This document shows positions 1 through 15,322 of a DNA stretch of 64,000 bases, one piece after another. A program made the position numbers and the translations under genes. The stretch is from positions 1 to 64,000 of the forward strand of contig JBCCEW010000021.1 of assembly GCA_039030075.1 (NCBI GenBank). The letters run 5' to 3'. A model generated the notes under the pieces. It saw only the letters and a program-made list of their open reading frames with translations. It was not told the DNA's origin and searched no databases. Numbering within the stretch: the stretch's first letter is position 1; the number at the start of each line of letters is the position of its first letter. Source of the DNA: Myxococcota bacterium. Its GTDB lineage: Bacteria; Myxococcota_A; UBA9160; SMWR01.

Positions 1-215
1 CCCTGCCGCTGCCTCCGCCGCTCCTGCATCGGCTGGCCTACCTCCCGTCCCAGGGGCAGACCGGCGATCCACCGGCCGCGTTCTACGATTACCTCCGCTA
101 CGGGTGGGTCGCCGACGGGCGACGCGCCTGGGAAGCGTTCGGCACGCCGCACTACACCACGAAGGAAGCCTGGAGCTCCTTCGTGTCCGCGCAGCGCTTG
201 CAGAGCTACACCTGA
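1..215 (+). CDS. C-terminal fragment of a probable NAD-dependent epimerase/dehydratase (SDR family)
   Basis: Only the last 70 codons are present, read in the frame ending at the TGA at 213-215. The fragment carries the pattern FYDYLRYGWVADGRRAWEAF followed by a Tyr-Thr-Thr-Lys-Glu-Ala stretch. That resembles the tail of extended SDR proteins, in which a short helix bearing a final substrate-contact segment follows the Rossmann domain. The Rossmann fold itself lies outside the window, so the family call is inferred. The next gene starts three bases after the stop, so the two are surely co-transcribed; an epimerase-like protein beside a PlsC-like acyltransferase fits a lipid or envelope role. 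It could be another Rossmann enzyme. Confidence 0.5.
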   Translation, partial: LPLPPPLLHRLAYLPSQGQTGDPPAAFYDYLRYGWVADGRRAWEAFGTPHYTTKEAWSSFVSAQRLQSYT

Positions 216-3442: not shown

Positions 3443-3979
3443 CTAGCTCGGCTCCGGCGCTGGTGCTCCACCTTCGACGGGTACACGCTCGACCCGGCGC
3501 GCCGGACGCGACCGGGGCGTCGGCTCCGCCGGGGTGTTGCGGGGGGAGGACGCCTCGCTCCGGCCGACGCCGAGTTCCCAGAGCAACTCGCGCAGCCCGA
3601 GGAACGCGCGCAGTACGGCGCGCGCCTCGTCGTCGTTGCGCGCCTGGTCTTCCCAGCGACGGATCTCGGCGTCCAGCGCTTCGGCGAGCGCGACACCGAG
3701 CTCGCTCGCCAGCGGGGCACGGTCGCGGAGCTCGCGTTGTCGCGACGCCACCCAGGCGTCGGCCGTCGCGAACAAGGGGTGCTCGGCGGCACCGACTCCC
3801 GACGTCGCCAGCGCCGCGGCATCGAGCAGTGCGCGCCCGGCGAGGAGCGCCTCGGAGAGCGCCTGAGCCGCGTGTCGACGCGCGCGGGCCAGCGCCGCGT
3901 CCATCGCGGCGCGGCTGGAGCCGTTGCCTTCAGCCATTGCGCGGGCCCGCGTCGGTGGGGGAGGAAGCCATCGCGTCAA
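3443..3979 (-). CDS. Unknown Ala-rich helical protein in the ArsA-PhaR operon
   Basis: I do not recognise this protein. From the TTG at 3979-3977 it has 178 residues. That start overlaps the upstream ATPase stop as TTGA and has AGGA just before it; an ATG at 3937 (giving 164 residues) is the alternative. The body is strongly helical and rich in Ala, Arg and Glu, with a conserved-looking WEDQARNDDEARAVLRAFLG segment near residue 115. The tail is Pro- and Arg-rich and probably disordered. There is no signal peptide or clear membrane helix. Its place between an ArsA-like ATPase and PhaR suggests a granule- or phasin-linked role, perhaps like the PHA synthase subunit PhaE, but only context supports that. 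Confidence 0.65.
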   Translation of the reverse strand: MTRWLPPPPTRARAMAEGNGSSRAAMDAALARARRHAAQALSEALLAGRALLDAAALATSGVGAAEHPLFATADAWVASRQRELRDRAPLASELGVALAEALDAEIRRWEDQARNDDEARAVLRAFLGLRELLWELGVGRSEASSPRNTPAEPTPRSRPARRVERVPVEGGAPAPEPS

Positions 3980-5163
3980 TCATCCTGACCGGGTTCGTCG
4001 GCGGTCGCCACCAGCGTCAGCGCCCCGGCGACGCGTCCGATACCGCCGAGGTCATGGACCTCGGCCGAGAACTCGGGCACCTGGCGGAAGAAGGCGCCGC
4101 GCCGCTCGGCTTCGCCCCGCAGCTCGCGGACGGCGTCGTCGTCCCGGGCCACCAGCGCGGCGTAGCGCCGGGCGGCGCCGAGCGCTGCCTCGGCCGCTTC
4201 GTCTGCCGGGAAGTCCGCCCCCCGCTGCTCGCGCAACGCGTCGACGAGCGGCGTCGGGTCGACCGCGGAGAGATCCGGGTCGAGGGGCGCTTCGTTCCCC
4301 GGCCACGCGCGAACGCGATTGGCGACGATGCCCGCGGCGTGCAGCTCGGTCGCTTCCAGTCGTTCGAGAAAGCGTCGGGCCTGGGCGACGGATTCGGTCT
4401 CGGGGCCGGCGATCAACACGAAGGCCGCGTCGGGCCCGCGCAACAGGGCGCTCACTTCCCGCGCGTGGCGTCGGAAGCCCTCGGACATCTCTTCGAAGGC
4501 GAGCAGGAACTCGGAGACGTCTTCCAGAAACCCGAGGCCCGTGATCCGCTCGATCAGGGAGAGCGCGCGACGCGTGCCCCACTGAAACCAACGCACGCCC
4601 GCACGGCCGGCCGCGAAGGCCGGATGGATCCACATCTGGACCAGCCGGCTGTCGAGGAACTGCAGAATGCGCTCCGGGGCGTCGAGGAAATCGAGCGCAT
4701 GCTGCGACGGGGGCGTGTCGACGACGATCGTGTCGAAGGCGTCGCTCTGCGCCATCTCGTACACCTTCTCCATCGCCGAGTACTCGACGCTCCCCGACAA
4801 CGCGTCCGAGACGTGCTGGTAGATCGGATTCGCGAGGACGCGATCGCGCGTGTCCGGGCTCGAGGCGAGCCGCTCGACGAGATCGTCGAAGGTGCGCTTC
4901 ATGTCGAGCATCATCGCCGACAGCGCACCCGAAGCCGGCACTCCGAGTCGATCGAGCACCTCGCGCGGGATCGCCTCTGGCTGGTTGCCGAGGGCCTCGA
5001 CACCGAGCGCGTCGGCGAGACGCCGTGCCGGGTCGATCGTGAGCACGAGCGCGCGGCGGCCCGCCTGCGCCGCCTGCAAGGCCACCGCCGAGGCCACCGT
5101 GGTCTTGCCGACGCCACCGCAGCCGACACACACGATCACCCGACGCTTCAGCGCGGGCAGCAT
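3976..5163 (-). CDS. ArsA/Get3-like ATPase, paralogue 1
   Basis: A 395-residue P-loop ATPase of the ArsA/Get3 group within the deviant Walker A (SIMIBI) class. The P-loop is GCGGVGKTT at residues 14-22, with Cys15 in place of the signature lysine that reaches across the dimer in Get3, ArsA and MinD. Switch II is DTPPSQH starting at Asp149, against DTAPTGH in classical members. It starts with ATG at 5163, sharing one base with the stop of the second paralogue (TGATG). The known roles of the family are arsenite export and tail-anchored protein delivery; no ArsB or arsenic regulator is nearby, so arsenic resistance is unlikely. Heterodimer formation with the next gene is inferred. Confidence 0.85.
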   Translation of the reverse strand: MLPALKRRVIVCVGCGGVGKTTVASAVALQAAQAGRRALVLTIDPARRLADALGVEALGNQPEAIPREVLDRLGVPASGALSAMMLDMKRTFDDLVERLASSPDTRDRVLANPIYQHVSDALSGSVEYSAMEKVYEMAQSDAFDTIVVDTPPSQHALDFLDAPERILQFLDSRLVQMWIHPAFAAGRAGVRWFQWGTRRALSLIERITGLGFLEDVSEFLLAFEEMSEGFRRHAREVSALLRGPDAAFVLIAGPETESVAQARRFLERLEATELHAAGIVANRVRAWPGNEAPLDPDLSAVDPTPLVDALREQRGADFPADEAAEAALGAARRYAALVARDDDAVRELRGEAERRGAFFRQVPEFSAEVHDLGGIGRVAGALTLVATADEPGQDD

Positions 5164-6125
5164 CAGGATGGAGCTCCGAGCAGGGCTTCGGACAGCGTGT
5201 CGAGATCCGCCGGGCCGCGCAGGCCGTTCGGCAGGTAGGGCAGCTCGGTGATCGGCAGCTCGGTCTCGTCGGCGATCTCGGCGACGTAGCGCGCGTTCAG
5301 CGAAGCGCGGTCACGCAAGAGCGCGCCGCACTCGGCGAGCCAGCCCGGCGAGGGCAGGTTGCCGAAGTCGCGATCGCCGGGCAACGCCGCCAGCGTCGTC
5401 TCGAGCCCTTCGAACGCGGGCGGGTAGGGCGGGGCGTGAACCGCATTGACCACCACCCGCTCGAGGCCGATGTCGAGTTCGCCGTGCACGCGCTGCACGA
5501 GCTCGATGGTTTCGCGGGCGGGTAGCTCCTCGCCGATGGCGACGGGCAAGAGCACCGAGCGCGTGCGGTCGCCGATCAACGTTTCGACCGCCTCGGTGTG
5601 CTGGCGCAGAGGGCCCGCGCGCACCGCGCTCACCACGACGCGCGGCACGTCGAGGAAGGTGAGCCCGTGCCCGGTCGCGGGCGCGTCGACGACGATCAGG
5701 TCGTAGCGGGGGCGGCGACCCTCCTCCATCTGCTCCAGGTGCCACACTTTCCCGAGCGTGATCAGGTCGCGCCAGCCGGGTGCGGCCATCAGGAACTGCT
5801 GGAAGGCCTTCTGGCGGATCACCGGGTCGACGAGTCGACGCGTTCCGAGTTGGAGACCCAGATACTCGCTGAGCGCTTCGAAGGGCTCGATGTGGCAGAA
5901 CGCCACTCCGCCCGCCTGGACGGGCGTGTAGGTCAGCTTGGCGCGCGGGGCGCCCAACAGGCCGCCGAGGCGGGCGTCGGGATCGACTGCCGCGAGCAGC
6001 ACGCGGCGTCCGCGGGCCGCGGCTCCATGGGCGAGCGCCGCGGCGACGGTGGTCTTCCCGGTGCCGCCCTTGCCGGTCACGATCACGAGCCGGCGATCCA
6101 GCAGCCCAGCTTTCGGTCCCGTCAA
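5163..6125 (-). CDS. ArsA/Get3-like ATPase, paralogue 2
   Basis: A 320-residue protein, first gene of the leftward operon. It has an intact deviant Walker A, GKGGTGKTT at residues 18-26 with signature Lys19, and a switch II of DAPATGH close to the classical DTAPTGH. There is no ArsA-type second half, so each protein supplies one half of a probable dimer. It ends in a one-base overlap with paralogue 1. The two genes diverge in length (320 and 395 residues) and only this one keeps the signature lysine. The 149 bases upstream are shared with the divergent zinc-ribbon gene and must hold both promoters; I see no convincing boxes there. Confidence 0.85.
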   Translation of the reverse strand: MTGPKAGLLDRRLVIVTGKGGTGKTTVAAALAHGAAARGRRVLLAAVDPDARLGGLLGAPRAKLTYTPVQAGGVAFCHIEPFEALSEYLGLQLGTRRLVDPVIRQKAFQQFLMAAPGWRDLITLGKVWHLEQMEEGRRPRYDLIVVDAPATGHGLTFLDVPRVVVSAVRAGPLRQHTEAVETLIGDRTRSVLLPVAIGEELPARETIELVQRVHGELDIGLERVVVNAVHAPPYPPAFEGLETTLAALPGDRDFGNLPSPGWLAECGALLRDRASLNARYVAEIADETELPITELPYLPNGLRGPADLDTLSEALLGAPS

Positions 6126-10099: not shown

Positions 10100-10678
10100 T
10101 CAGCGCGCGAGGAGCATCTTGCGCGCGCGGTAGAGGTTCGACTTCACGGCGTCCTCGCTCTTGTCGAGGAGCTGGGCGATGTCGGCGATCGGGCGATGCT
10201 CGACGTGGTGAAGCACGAACAGGCGGCGCTGTTCCTCGGAGAGCTTTTCGGCTGCCGTCTCGAGTCGCGTCAAGCGCTCGCGGAGCTCGTAGACCTCGAG
10301 CGGTGTCGCGGCTCGATCCCCGCCTACCATCGGCTCCCCGGAGAGTTCTCCGTCCTCGTCCAGATCGAACGGCACCGTCGGGTGCTGCTTCTTCTTGAAG
10401 CGGCTCGCGATGGTGAAGCGCGCGATCCCCAGCACCCAGGCGGCGAAGGGCGCCTCGGCGCGGAACGAATCGAGCGACGAGAACACCGCCGCGAAGACCT
10501 CTTGGGTGGTCTCCTCGGCGTCGGCGCGGTTGTGAAGACGCTTCTCGACGAAGCGGTACACGCGACCCACGTAGCGGTCGTAGAGCGTGTCGAAGGCCTC
10601 GGCGTCGCCCGCCAGGACCGCGGTGACCAGCTGCTCGTCACTCAGAGCGGGTGCGGAGCACGCAGCTGCAGCAGACAT
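10100..10678 (-). CDS. ECF-type RNA polymerase sigma factor
   Basis: A 192-residue sigma factor with region 2 (about residues 25-95, including FDTLYDRYVGRVYRFVEKRL and the -10-binding helix FAAWVLGIARFTIASRFKKK) and region 4 (about 135-190, with the helix-turn-helix IADIAQLLDKSEDAVKSNLY). Regions 1.1 and 3 are absent, as in ECF factors. No anti-sigma gene is next to it. The gene follows the ParA-CBM48 operon on the same strand, behind a perfect 12-base inverted repeat. The downstream hydrolase-like gene may be a target or a partner. Confidence 0.92.
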   Translation of the reverse strand: MSAAAACSAPALSDEQLVTAVLAGDAEAFDTLYDRYVGRVYRFVEKRLHNRADAEETTQEVFAAVFSSLDSFRAEAPFAAWVLGIARFTIASRFKKKQHPTVPFDLDEDGELSGEPMVGGDRAATPLEVYELRERLTRLETAAEKLSEEQRRLFVLHHVEHRPIADIAQLLDKSEDAVKSNLYRARKMLLAR

Positions 10679-10866: not shown

Positions 10867-11475
10867 TCAGCGCCTCGGCTCGAACTCCGCGTATTCCTCG
10901 GCGGAGAGGCCCAGGTCCTCGGCCGAGAGACCGGTCCGGAACGGCGAATCGGAGCCCGCGGGCTCGTGGCCGGGCGGGGCATCCTCTGCCGGACCCGCGA
11001 CCTCGGGGGCCGCCGCGGACCGGGGAGCGCCCAACGCCTCGAGCAGGGCCACCAACCCGGACCCATTCTGCGCGAACCGCACCTCGGCCAGGCGGATCCC
11101 CTGGCTCGCCACCGAGTGGCTGGCGCTGCGCGCCGCATCCGTGTGTTCCGGCGCGATCAGCCAGCTGGTGATCCCGGCTTCGGATCGCAGACCCGCGGCA
11201 GGCACCAGCTGCGCCCAATCGGCGATCCGCGCGAACAGCCAGGCCTGGTGCGCGAGGGCCTGGCCGATCAGCGGCAGCGTGTCGCTCTCGGTCGCGCACA
11301 GCACGAGCACGAGGCGTCCGCGCCCGTCGTGTCCCACCCAGTCGATCCGATGGTCTGCGGCGAGCACCTGGGCGGCGAGCGGTGTCCAGGTGGACTCGAG
11401 CTGGGACAGCGCGCGCTCGATCGCGCGGCGGCGATCGCCATCGGGGATGCGGGCAGCGGGGCGGAGGTCAGCCAA
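10867..11475 (-). CDS. Unknown protein, third gene of the ParA-CBM48 operon
   Basis: A 202-residue protein that I do not recognise with confidence. It starts at a TTG overlapping the end of the upstream gene by eight bases. Residues 1-115 look like a compact alpha/beta domain containing DHRIDWVGHDGRGRLVLVLC and a following helix with GQALAHQAWLFARIADW. This Asp-x2-Gly / hydrophobic-strand arrangement is reminiscent of the PD-(D/E)XK nuclease-like core found in DUF91 and NucS-type proteins, but the catalytic pattern is not complete by eye. The C-terminal 60 residues are Pro/Ser/Glu-rich and probably flexible. It is probably cytoplasmic and works with the ParA-like proteins encoded just upstream. 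Confidence 0.6.
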   Translation of the reverse strand: MADLRPAARIPDGDRRRAIERALSQLESTWTPLAAQVLAADHRIDWVGHDGRGRLVLVLCATESDTLPLIGQALAHQAWLFARIADWAQLVPAAGLRSEAGITSWLIAPEHTDAARSASHSVASQGIRLAEVRFAQNGSGLVALLEALGAPRSAAAPEVAGPAEDAPPGHEPAGSDSPFRTGLSAEDLGLSAEEYAEFEPRR

Positions 11476-12235
11476 GGTTCATCTTCAGCGCGTCTTGCCA
11501 GAGCATTCCGGCGACGTCGCCGACGGCGCGTGCAGCCCGCGACTGCGGATGGAGCAATCCGATCGGACGCCCCTCGGCGGTGGCGCGGTAGACCTGCAGG
11601 TCGTCGACGACCAGACCGTAGCTCACCGGACTGCGCGACAGATGCCGACGGGCCGTGCCCGCAATGCGGGCGAAGGCGCTACGCGCGTCACTCGCGTCGC
11701 GGGCGCCGTGCACCACCAGACCGATCCGCGCGTCGTTCCCTTGCAGCCAGGCGCGCTTCGCGAGGGCGTAGTTCTGTCTCAGATCGGGCAGGTCGGGCGT
11801 GCTCCACAGCAAGAGCCAGCGCAGGAGCGGCCGTGGCAACGTCTCGTGTTGGAGCCACTCGCGCGGCAGAGCCACCAGCACCAGTCCCCCGTCGCTGGCG
11901 ACGGCGGCCTGCTCGACCGCGAGATCGATCGCGGCGTGGGCCAGGGCGGATGCGTCGTGGGCGGGGGCGTAGTGCACCTGGCAACCGAGGGGGCCCGGGC
12001 CTGCCTCGGGCCACAGCGGGGCCAGCGCGCGGTCGCGCGGCGCCACCAGGACACTGCGGGCACCGCGCCGAGCCCACTCGACTCCGAGGTTCCAGGCCAG
12101 GCCCGCGCGCACCGCGTCGTCCGGCGCGAGCGGCACGGTCAGCAGAGGCAGCGCGGCCGGGTTCGGGCGGGTCGATTCCTCTTCCTGCGCGGGCGGCAGG
12201 AAGTAGTCGAGTACGTCGTCCAGATTGCGGGGCAA
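11468..12235 (-). CDS. Degenerate ParA/MinD-like protein without a P-loop
   Basis: A 255-residue protein starting at TTG 12235, five bases past the end of the ParA-CBM48 gene (MPRNLDDVLDYF). After a Pro-rich leader, the segment LPLLTVPLAPDDAVRAGLAW sits where a ParA-type protein has its Walker A loop. The fold pattern (strand, helix, then ARRGARSVLVAPRD) is kept, but no Gly-Lys-Thr remains. A late segment SYGLVVDDLQVYRATAEGRP resembles the C-terminal helix region of MinD/FleN-like ATPases. It is probably a non-ATP-binding partner of the active ParA upstream. The reading frame extends upstream inside parA, so an earlier start cannot be excluded. Confidence 0.65.
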   Translation of the reverse strand: MPRNLDDVLDYFLPPAQEEESTRPNPAALPLLTVPLAPDDAVRAGLAWNLGVEWARRGARSVLVAPRDRALAPLWPEAGPGPLGCQVHYAPAHDASALAHAAIDLAVEQAAVASDGGLVLVALPREWLQHETLPRPLLRWLLLWSTPDLPDLRQNYALAKRAWLQGNDARIGLVVHGARDASDARSAFARIAGTARRHLSRSPVSYGLVVDDLQVYRATAEGRPIGLLHPQSRAARAVGDVAGMLWQDALKMNLG

Positions 12236-12239
12236 GGCC

Positions 12240-13316
12240 TCAGCGCACCACGAGCACCGAGTTGCGGCCGCCGTTCTGGTTGGTGACGGCGTCCGGGTTC
12301 TCGGGGTCGTCCCGCCACTCCCCGTCGACGACGTAGCGGTACTGGTATCGGCCGGGCGACAGCTGAAGGATCTTCGTCCACACGCGATCGTCGCCTTCGG
12401 CTTCGACCAGTGAGCGCACGCCGCGATCGGGAACCCAGCCGTTGAAGTCGCCCGCGATCCGAACGTCGTGCGCGCGGCTCTCCCGGAATCGCACGACCAC
12501 CTCGCGCGAACTCGCCACGGCCGGTTCGGGTGTGGCTTCGTAGACCTCGGGGGCGTCGACGGCCACTTCGATCGCAAGTGCGGCGTAGTCGTGGGTTCCG
12601 TTCGCCGTGCGCGAGATCGCGTTGATCGGCTTGCCGCGGCTCGCGGCTTCGCGGAGCTTCACGTTCTGACGGATCACCGTGTCGAAGCAGAGATCCTTGA
12701 AGAGCTCGCGGATCTCGCCGAGCGTCTGCCGCGCATAGCGCGTTCGCCCGTCGAAGAGGGTGGGCAGGATGCGCACCGAGAGCTCGTGGCCGATGCGTTC
12801 GGAGAGCAGGGCGATCGTCTCGAGCAGCTTCTGCACGCCGTGGATCGCGAAGTAGCTCGTCTCGAGGGGAACGATGACTTCGCGGGCGGCGCGCAGCGCG
12901 TTGAAGGTGAGGAGACCGACGTTGGGCGCGCAGTCGATCAACACGAAGTCGTAGCGGTCCTCGAGTGCCTCGATGGCGCGGGTCAGTCGCTCGGTGCGCG
13001 TCTCTACGGGCTCGGTCGCGAGCTTCTGTTCCAGGGCGGAGAGCACGATGCCCGACGGGGCGACGTCGAGGCCTTCGCGAACCGCGACGCAGACGTCCGG
13101 CAGCCGCGTAGCTCCGCTGGCATCGGCGAAGACCTCGTACAGGTTCTCGTCGAGCCGCTCCGGATCGGCACCGAGGGCGAGGGTCGCGTGGGCCTGCGGA
13201 TCGAGGTCGACGACCAGGACGCGATGCCCGTCGGCGCAGAGCGCACCGGCCAGGTTGACGGCCGTGGTCGTCTTCCCGCATCCCCCCTTCTGGTTGACGA
13301 TGGCGATCACGCGCAT
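12240..13316 (-). CDS. ParA family ATPase fused to a CBM48/AMPK-type glycogen-binding domain
   Basis: A 358-residue protein starting at ATG 13316 with GGGGGAA upstream. Residues 1-255 are a ParA/Soj-type ATPase: the deviant Walker A QKGGCGKTT at 9-17 with signature Lys10, Walker A' VLVVDLDPQAHAT, and Walker B FVLIDCAPNVGLLTFNAL. Residues 272-358 form an immunoglobulin-like CBM48/AMPK1-CBM domain: VRIAGDFNGWVPD (Trp294), LSPGRYQYRYVVDGEWRDDP (Trp334) and GGRNSVLV (Asn352), which match the sugar-binding Trp, Trp and Asn positions of AMPK beta. ParA ATPases position DNA or large cargoes; the fused domain suggests a glycogen-like polysaccharide as cargo or signal. The family calls are firm; the role is inferred. 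Confidence 0.85.
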   Translation of the reverse strand: MRVIAIVNQKGGCGKTTTAVNLAGALCADGHRVLVVDLDPQAHATLALGADPERLDENLYEVFADASGATRLPDVCVAVREGLDVAPSGIVLSALEQKLATEPVETRTERLTRAIEALEDRYDFVLIDCAPNVGLLTFNALRAAREVIVPLETSYFAIHGVQKLLETIALLSERIGHELSVRILPTLFDGRTRYARQTLGEIRELFKDLCFDTVIRQNVKLREAASRGKPINAISRTANGTHDYAALAIEVAVDAPEVYEATPEPAVASSREVVVRFRESRAHDVRIAGDFNGWVPDRGVRSLVEAEGDDRVWTKILQLSPGRYQYRYVVDGEWRDDPENPDAVTNQNGGRNSVLVVR

Positions 13317-13422: not shown

Positions 13423-13911
13423 TCACGGCACGCGCGCCGAGGCGTTGCCGAGAGAGGGGCGTGGAGCGGTTCGGCGCGTGGAGTCGCGCCGGGCTTCGGC
13501 CGAAGCCTGCTTCTCGCGATGCGCGTCCACCGCACGCTGGAGCTCGGCCACCTCGAAGATCCACTCTTGACCGGTGATGGCTTCGAAGGCGGTCCCATCC
13601 TTGAACGCGAGCACGACGTCGCCGGTCGCGACCAGCACGACCTCGGAGAGGGGGCGGCGGACGGCCGGGAGCATCTCGCGCAGGGCCCGGATCGAGCGAC
13701 GGATCCGCTGCAGCGAAACGCCGGCGTCGATCAGTCGCTTCGTGGCCCGCAGCGCCACGAGATCCTCGAACGCGTAGCGTGCGTGGCCCCCGCGGGTGCG
13801 ACGGCTGGGCTGGACCAGGTCGGTCTCAGACCAGTACTGCAGCTGACGTCGGGAGACCCCAATGATCTCCACCACGTCGCCGACGCGATACAGGTCGGAC
13901 GATGCCGTCAT
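13423..13911 (-). CDS. MerR family transcriptional regulator
   Basis: A 162-residue protein starting at ATG 13911. The MerR winged helix-turn-helix fills residues 7-75: LYRVGDVVEIIGVSRRQLQY, then the wing RTRGGHARYAFEDL and a helix with AGVSLQRIRRSIRALRE. The C-terminal part (EVVLVATGDVVLAFKDGTAF) is a small effector domain with no Cys or other metal pattern. It lies 106 bases upstream of the ParA-CBM48 gene on the same strand and probably heads or regulates that operon. The 17-base dyad at 14005-14021 is a candidate operator. The ligand is unknown. Confidence 0.88.
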   Translation of the reverse strand: MTASSDLYRVGDVVEIIGVSRRQLQYWSETDLVQPSRRTRGGHARYAFEDLVALRATKRLIDAGVSLQRIRRSIRALREMLPAVRRPLSEVVLVATGDVVLAFKDGTAFEAITGQEWIFEVAELQRAVDAHREKQASAEARRDSTRRTAPRPSLGNASARVP

Positions 13912-14095: not shown

Positions 14096-15322
14096 GTGTC
14101 GACCCGTGAGGACGAACTCCGCCGCCCGAATGGGGCCTCGGGGCGCTCCGCCGAGAGTGCCGAAACGGGCTCCGACGGCCGCCTTTGGGTGGAGCAGGCG
14201 GGCGTCCGGCGTCCGTTCATGCGGGGCATCATGATCCACTCGCTGATGGCGCGGGGGGTGCCCTTCGACGAAGCGAACCGCACGGCCAACATCGTGCGCG
14301 ATCGGCTGAGGCCCCAGGGGGTGGTCGCGAAGGTCGACATCGTTCACGTCCTGCACGAGCTGCTGGACCCCGCGCTCTTCGACGGCGAGCACCTTTCGGC
14401 CCAGGGCGTGGAGGTGATCGTCGAAGGCGACGGCAAGAGCGCACCCTTCTCGAAGGGCGTGTTGTCCCAATCGCTGCTGGCCGCCGCGATCGATCCCGAC
14501 GACGCCTTCGAGGTCGCGCGCGACATCGAGACCGAACTGCGTCAGCGGGCCGTGCGCTCGATCGAGCGGTCGGAGCTACGCCGCCTGGCTTTCCATACCG
14601 TGACACGGCGGGTCGGGCCGAAGTCGGGCGAGCGCTACCTGGTCTGGCGGCACTACGAGGAACCCGAGCGTCCCGTGATCCTGTTGCTCGGGGGCGCCGC
14701 CGGGGTTGGCAAGACCTCGCTCGCCCTCGAGGTCGCCCACCGGCTCGGCATCGGACGGGTGCTCTCGACCGATTCGATCCGCCAGATCATGCGATTGATG
14801 CTGTCCGAGGAGCTCGCACCGGCGATCCACGGCTCGTCCTACGACGCGCATCAGAACTTCGCCGCGGGGGCCCTGGGCAGCGACCCGGTCGTGGAAGCGT
14901 TCCGCGCACAGGCGACCACCGTGTCGGTGGGCGTGAAGGCGTCGATCGAGCGCGCCATCGACGAGAACACCCATCTGGTCATCGACGGCGTGTCGCTCTT
15001 CCCAGGCAGCCTCGACCTCGACGCCTACGTCGATCGGGCCGACGTGATCTTCCTGGTGGTCGCGACCCTGGATCCCGGCGCCTTCCCCGCTCGGTTCGCG
15101 GCCCGCGAGACCACGGGTGGGGGAATCCGGCCGGCCCACCGCTACGTCCAGAACCTCGATGCGATCCTGCACATCCAGGACGCGATCCTGGACGCGGCCG
15201 AACGCCTCGACGTGCCGATCGTCGACAACGAGAGCTTCGACCGGGCGGTCCTCCTGGTGATCCGCCACCTGACCGAGGCGTTGCGTGAGCGGCCGGGCTT
15301 CGATCCGCAGGGCATGATCTAG
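14096..15322 (+). CDS. 2-phosphoglycerate kinase-like protein with two ATP-cone domains
   Basis: A 408-residue protein starting at GTG. Two ATP-cone-like modules lie in tandem: residues 29-72 (LWVEQAGVRRPFMRGIMIHS) and 104-150 (VIVEGDGKSAPFSKGVLSQS). The kinase domain follows, with a P-loop GGAAGVGKTS at 199-208, STDSIRQIMR and a hydrophobic Asp-Gly-Val-Ser-Leu-Phe-Pro-Gly segment. The order cone-then-kinase is that of archaeal 2-phosphoglycerate kinases, which make the precursor of cyclic 2,3-diphosphoglycerate; those I know have a single cone. The substrate here is unproven and a different small-molecule kinase is possible. It is divergent from merR and the ParA-CBM48 operon. Confidence 0.75.
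   Translation: MSTREDELRRPNGASGRSAESAETGSDGRLWVEQAGVRRPFMRGIMIHSLMARGVPFDEANRTANIVRDRLRPQGVVAKVDIVHVLHELLDPALFDGEHLSAQGVEVIVEGDGKSAPFSKGVLSQSLLAAAIDPDDAFEVARDIETELRQRAVRSIERSELRRLAFHTVTRRVGPKSGERYLVWRHYEEPERPVILLLGGAAGVGKTSLALEVAHRLGIGRVLSTDSIRQIMRLMLSEELAPAIHGSSYDAHQNFAAGALGSDPVVEAFRAQATTVSVGVKASIERAIDENTHLVIDGVSLFPGSLDLDAYVDRADVIFLVVATLDPGAFPARFAARETTGGGIRPAHRYVQNLDAILHIQDAILDAAERLDVPIVDNESFDRAVLLVIRHLTEALRERPGFDPQGMI

Follow-up and report, generated by a model that had tools for sequence, protein, structure and literature searches.

The window, the whole 64,000-nucleotide stretch analyzed here, encodes a complete ParA ATPase fused to a CBM48 domain of the AMPK-beta type, here called ParA-CBM. 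The fusion is real, and the pairing is an ancient, deeply conserved family. As far as literature searches show, it is an undescribed, widely conserved ParA-type variant: nothing relevant was found on ParA with CBM48, a glycogen-binding domain, a glycogen granule, or the isoamylase early set domain. Acting through partner proteins, ATPases of the ParA/MinD group arrange chromosomes, plasmids, carboxysomes, flagella, and chemoreceptors in the cell. In ParA-CBM, a candidate module for cargo or ligand is part of the ATPase itself, and the combination has been kept in about ten phyla. We propose, with a probability of about one half, that ParA-CBM is an ATPase for positioning or switching that has a glycan-binding arm and is activated by a ParB-like partner. 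Two questions become testable: whether some ParA system acts on a sugar polymer, and what ligand is bound by an AMPK-type sugar site in a cell without detected glycogen enzymes.

The fusion gene and its two domains

The features of the locus are listed in Table 1. AlphaFold predicted two confident domains (overall pLDDT 91.6) with a disordered linker between them (residues 259 to 267, pLDDT below 50), and linker pN/pS was approximately 1 in several pairs of sequences. Foldseek matched the ATPase part to 8ray (M. xanthus ParA) and 2bek (Soj) with E values of 1e-23 to 1e-25. For the C-terminal part, Pfam AMPK1_CBM (PF16561) spans residues 274 to 357 with 46.9 bits (cut-off, 26.8). The top PDB sequence match was 4y0g (E 5.9e-9), along with 1z0n (E 2.6e-8), both AMPK-beta; plant glucan phosphatases and a pullulanase ranked behind them, weakly. 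Therefore, Pfam, the PDB sequence matches, and AlphaFold confirm what had been read from the sequence alone, that a complete ParA is joined to a CBM48 domain. The same reading held that two sugar-binding tryptophans and Asn352 are kept, and all three line up with their counterparts in the AMPK-beta glycogen-binding domain.

Table 1. Features of the ParA-CBM locus in the window
Feature	Residues	Position	Strand	Basis or remark
ParA-CBM48 ORF	1-358	12240..13316	(-)	ATG at 13316
ParA/Soj-like ATPase domain	1-252	12561..13316	(-)	Pfam AAA_31, 172.8 bits; Foldseek
Walker A, QKGGCGKTT	9-17			
Unconstrained linker	253-270	12507..12560	(-)	Low pLDDT; pN/pS
AMPK-beta-type CBM48 (E-set) domain	271-358 + stop	12240..12506	(-)	PF16561; PDB matches
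CBM residue Trp294	294	12435-12437		
CBM residue Trp334	334	12315-12317		
CBM residue Asn352	352	12261-12263		
P2, predicted partner		11468..12235	(-)	N-terminal MPRNLDDVLDYFLPP, then degenerate ParA-fold body without Walker A
P3, PD-(D/E)XK-like (NucS/EndoMS-like) fold		10867..11475	(-)	AlphaFold and Foldseek
MerR-family HTH protein, just upstream of fusion		13423..13911	(-)	MerR_1, 63.1 bits

The deviant Walker A, Walker A', and Walker B motifs are present, and the signature Lys10, Asp39, and Asp128 were invariant in all aligned rows. The Arg191 position was basic in 53 of 54 aligned fusions, and that of K220, which corresponds to the DNA-binding Arg238 of M. xanthus ParA, was basic in 47 of 54. 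These basic residues predict that the fusion binds DNA nonspecifically. Equivalents of the ParB-binding pocket residues of M. xanthus ParA (PMC12462528) are partly conserved (Tyr60, Val133, Leu135, Phe138, and Leu170). Counting against a ParB-like activation, only part of the acidic cluster that accommodates the arginine of ParB is kept: the equivalents of D110 and E117 are not conserved, and V116 is replaced by Gln. ParA-CBM thus shares with chromosomal ParA/Soj (8ray and T. thermophilus Soj) the fold, the Walker motifs, the signature lysine, the basic DNA-binding positions, and a partner with a short N-terminal motif, but it has no adjacent ParB and carries the extra C-terminal CBM48 domain.

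The sequence-only reading had also held that no described system ties a ParA to a polysaccharide. That overlooked BcsQ (YhjQ), a ParA/MinD-like ATPase of cellulose secretion, which was present among the structural matches. The fusion scores above the Pfam cut-off for PF06564 and matches BcsQ in Foldseek, but it reaches only 63.6 bits against NCBIfam BcsQ TIGR03371, below the equivalog cut-off of 157.85. Both are ParA-like ATPases with a link to polysaccharide, a predicted one in the case of the fusion, and BcsQ has no CBM. No cellulose genes were recognized beside the fusion.

The family is widespread and old

In the same order, 54 of 61 genomes matched the fusion at E 1e-60 or better, mostly at full length. 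A few matches ended near residues 252 to 289, and at least two of these (G032 and G036) have the CBM as a separate match behind. The search for the same fusion in other genomes, which had been suggested as a check, was productive: 80 loci came up when a species-level genome collection was scanned, and the CBM was present on about 75 contigs, which belong to about ten phyla outside its own. The phyla in the scan were Myxococcota, Desulfobacterota, Rokubacteria, Eisenbacteria, Krumholzibacteriota, Omnitrophota, Planctomycetota, Nitrospirota, Acidobacteriota, Auribacterota, and Gammaproteobacteria. The fusion is not an artifact, since most members of the order, along with about ten further phyla, have fusions of the same length.

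Phylum groups mostly cohere in the tree. Five ParA proteins without a CBM require two changes, which may be losses. Two Nitrospirota ParA proteins (L104 and L113; 7989-8900) lack the CBM yet retain MerR, P2, and P3 neighbors. A plasmid origin was rejected, as no plasmid record covered 80% of the query.

The CBM site is maintained by selection

Trp294, Trp334, Phe291, Gly322, Tyr326, and Asp337 were invariant across the 54 aligned fusions. Position 327 was Arg or Lys in 52 of 54, and position 352 was Asn or Asp in 51 of 54. The domain is therefore not confined to proteins that have lost the site, an outcome that the sequence-only reading had named as evidence against sugar binding. The CBM is under purifying selection (omega 0.07 to 0.33) and is about as slow to change as the ATPase domain, whereas the linker is free. 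Furthermore, in 20 species without GlgA or a CBM48-type GH13, the aromatic site was unchanged and Asn352 was retained in 18. Therefore, selection maintains the CBM even where nothing points to glycogen in the cell.

Compared with AMPK-beta, the domain shares the E-set fold, both stacking tryptophans, a basic residue at the Lys126 position, and Asn or Asp at the Asn150 position. It differs in being fused to ParA, in lacking the region that binds AMPK alpha and gamma, and in occurring in genomes where no glycogen enzymes were detected. The fusion is the sole AMPK1_CBM match in its own genome.

Glycogen genes do not track the fusion within the order

A look for nearby glycogen genes had been suggested as a check, and a glycogen granule had been proposed as a possible cargo. 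A GH57 gene lies near the fusion at 12 loci, mostly in Omnitrophota. The window's own genome is 95% complete and had no match to GlgA (PF08323), CBM_48 (PF02922), GH13 (PF00128), or GH57 (PF03065); each of these families had matches in 9 to 13 of the 14 control genomes. Within the order, 24 of 54 genomes with the fusion had GlgA or a strong match to CBM_48, as did 2 of the 7 that lack the fusion (Fisher P = 0.69). This test covered GlgA and CBM_48, with GH57 searched, among genomes of the order, in the window's own genome only. Thirty of the 54 carriers had neither GlgA nor a CBM48-type GH13, and 19 of these were at least 90% complete. The fusion is thus independent of glycogen genes in its order, and a glycogen cargo in its own organism was rejected on the missing enzymes. 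What the CBM binds in this clade is probably something other than glycogen, and no glycan pathway that would name it was found in the genome.

Outside the order, we sampled 50 genomes, of which 48 carry the fusion and 2 have CBM-less kin. All 50 matched PF08323 (four weakly), 49 matched PF02922, and 48 had GH57. In a gammaproteobacterial order used as a control, GlgA was found in 19 of 20 genomes and was almost ubiquitous whether or not the fusion was present. Therefore, the co-occurrence with GlgA outside the order cannot be separated from phylogeny and is uninformative. Just upstream of ParA-CBM, Omnitrophota loci have a GH57 gene and a gene for a membrane protein (L071, 5701-7984, and others), and there may be an alpha-glucan link in this phylum and in other phyla that keep glycogen enzymes. 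The membrane protein has a conserved cytoplasmic N terminus, KKEIYEHLAxIYLD, and related loci have an alginate-export-like porin gene further upstream.

P2 is a putative ParB-like partner

ParA-CBM and P2 form an operon in which P2 starts with TTG 4 bases past the ParA stop codon. P2 matched no Pfam or NCBIfam family, but a P2 profile reached ParA-CBM proteins at E ~1e-14. Its N terminus carries a motif that recurs in the next gene elsewhere, for example as LGRGLEDVSHLFLS. The partner motif occurred within 260 bases 3' of ParA at 57 of 100 loci compared with 2.15% of random windows; a small number of these 57 are matches by chance. In M. xanthus ParB, the ParA-binding motif comprises L11, R13, L15, L18, and I19 (PMC12462528). 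We checked P2-type partners for the ParB-like motif L-x-[RK]-x-L-x-x-L; the register [RK]x[LIVM]xx[LIVM] was found in 27 of 31, with the spacing of the M. xanthus motif, and P2 of the window and the ParB of its own genome have the fuller pattern in common. The likeness to the ParB peptide is one of spacing and may not reflect homology.

Behind the motif is a degenerate ParA body in the window and in most of a set of 57 further loci. Other bodies are a helix-turn-helix (L054), a helix-turn-helix with RodZ_C (L056), and, in Rokubacteria, the P3 domain itself. In L056, a single partner (1614-2966) combines the N-terminal motif, the helix-turn-helix, and the RodZ C-terminal domain. ParA/MinD partners in general have variable bodies and a constant N terminus that acts on the ATPase (PMC10241942). 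P2 is therefore predicted to be a ParB-like activating partner of ParA-CBM. There is no ParB beside the fusion, where the neighbors are MerR, P2, and P3; the ParB of this genome adjoins another ParA on a separate contig. McdA/McdB and other ParA/MinD cargo positioners likewise pair an ATPase side by side with a small partner that has a basic N terminus, but their partner families are different and here the candidate cargo-binding domain is within the ATPase.

P2 was missing from nearly all Omnitrophota loci. The membrane protein upstream in this phylum was considered as a motif carrier, but the motif profile did not support it (P = 0.47). Most Omnitrophota and Planctomycetota loci have the CBM with no P2 detected, and the two Nitrospirota loci described above have P2 and no CBM. 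Each is found without the other, and the idea that the CBM is a mere dock for P2 was rejected.

Proposed mechanism and alternatives

We suggest that ATP-bound ParA-CBM would dimerize and bind the nucleoid through its conserved basic residues. The N-terminal motif of P2 might then dock at the dimer edge like the ParB peptide and set off hydrolysis of the bound ATP, which would let the ATPase cycle on the nucleoid. Meanwhile, the CBM48 arm on its flexible linker could bind or sense a sugar polymer or a sugar-decorated cargo. The residues of the binding site do not vary even in genomes where no glycogen enzymes were detected, so the CBM may still sense or tether a sugar; an arm that binds or senses glycan is the best remaining account of it. 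A broader version is more tentative: an ancient ParA would bind polysaccharide itself, a ParB-like motif would have been grafted onto unrelated bodies, and the system would position or sense, in this clade, a glycan other than glycogen or a body coated with such a glycan and, outside it, alpha-glucan.

Other explanations use the same domain differently. By tethering storage glycogen to a ParA gradient, the CBM might serve to distribute granules and secure their inheritance. Its nearest relatives are AMPK-beta glycogen-binding domains, carriers and kin outside the order have PF08323, PF02922, and GH57, and a GH57 gene adjoins the fusion in Omnitrophota. However, the enzymes are missing from the window's genome, 30 of 54 carriers in the order lack GlgA and a GH13 with CBM48, and the co-occurrence elsewhere says little where GlgA is near universal, which makes granule positioning very unlikely. 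A soluble sugar or oligosaccharide bound to the CBM might instead alter ATPase cycling or MerR, with no cargo. AMPK-beta is a precedent for sugar sensing, AlphaFold predicts a flexible linker, and MerR homologues lie directly upstream of the fusion in Myxococcota, Nitrospirota, and Gammaproteobacteria. Such a switch seems unlikely, as the domains show no sign of being directly coupled and MerR is absent from most phyla that have the fusion. That purifying selection acts where no glycogen synthesis was detected would also suit an E-set domain that is now a protein-protein module, its aromatic residues serving a protein partner or the fold. This is rather improbable, because the sugar-binding residues of AMPK-beta are invariant over ten phyla with differing neighbors, and P2 is not that partner, given that the two occur apart.

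Other neighbors of the fusion

P3 homologues were found at 49 loci. The AlphaFold model of P3 (pLDDT 86) has an alpha-beta-beta-beta-alpha-beta order, and its Foldseek similarity to NucS/EndoMS is weak (2vld, E 2.9e-6, TM just 0.4). The catalytic E and K are apparently missing, and P3 is probably not a nuclease. An ECF-type sigma factor gene (10100-10678, minus strand) lies directly 3' of P3, a position conserved in several Myxococcota loci. On the other side, a gene for an ATP-cone and P-loop kinase-like protein (14096-15322, plus strand) diverges from the MerR gene, and homologues occupy the equivalent position in several Myxococcota loci. Two adjacent ArsA/GET3-like ATPase genes (3976-5163 and 5163-6125, minus strand; ArsA_ATPase, 91.0 and 79.6 bits) are also in the window. 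Finally, 17 loci encode a lysine-rich protein of 120 to 170 amino acids (cluster c2) with a conserved C-terminal GxITHYFPHVxAxVIKL, located approximately 1.1 to 1.5 kb 3' of the ParA start in L053, L067, L071, L077, L093, and others.
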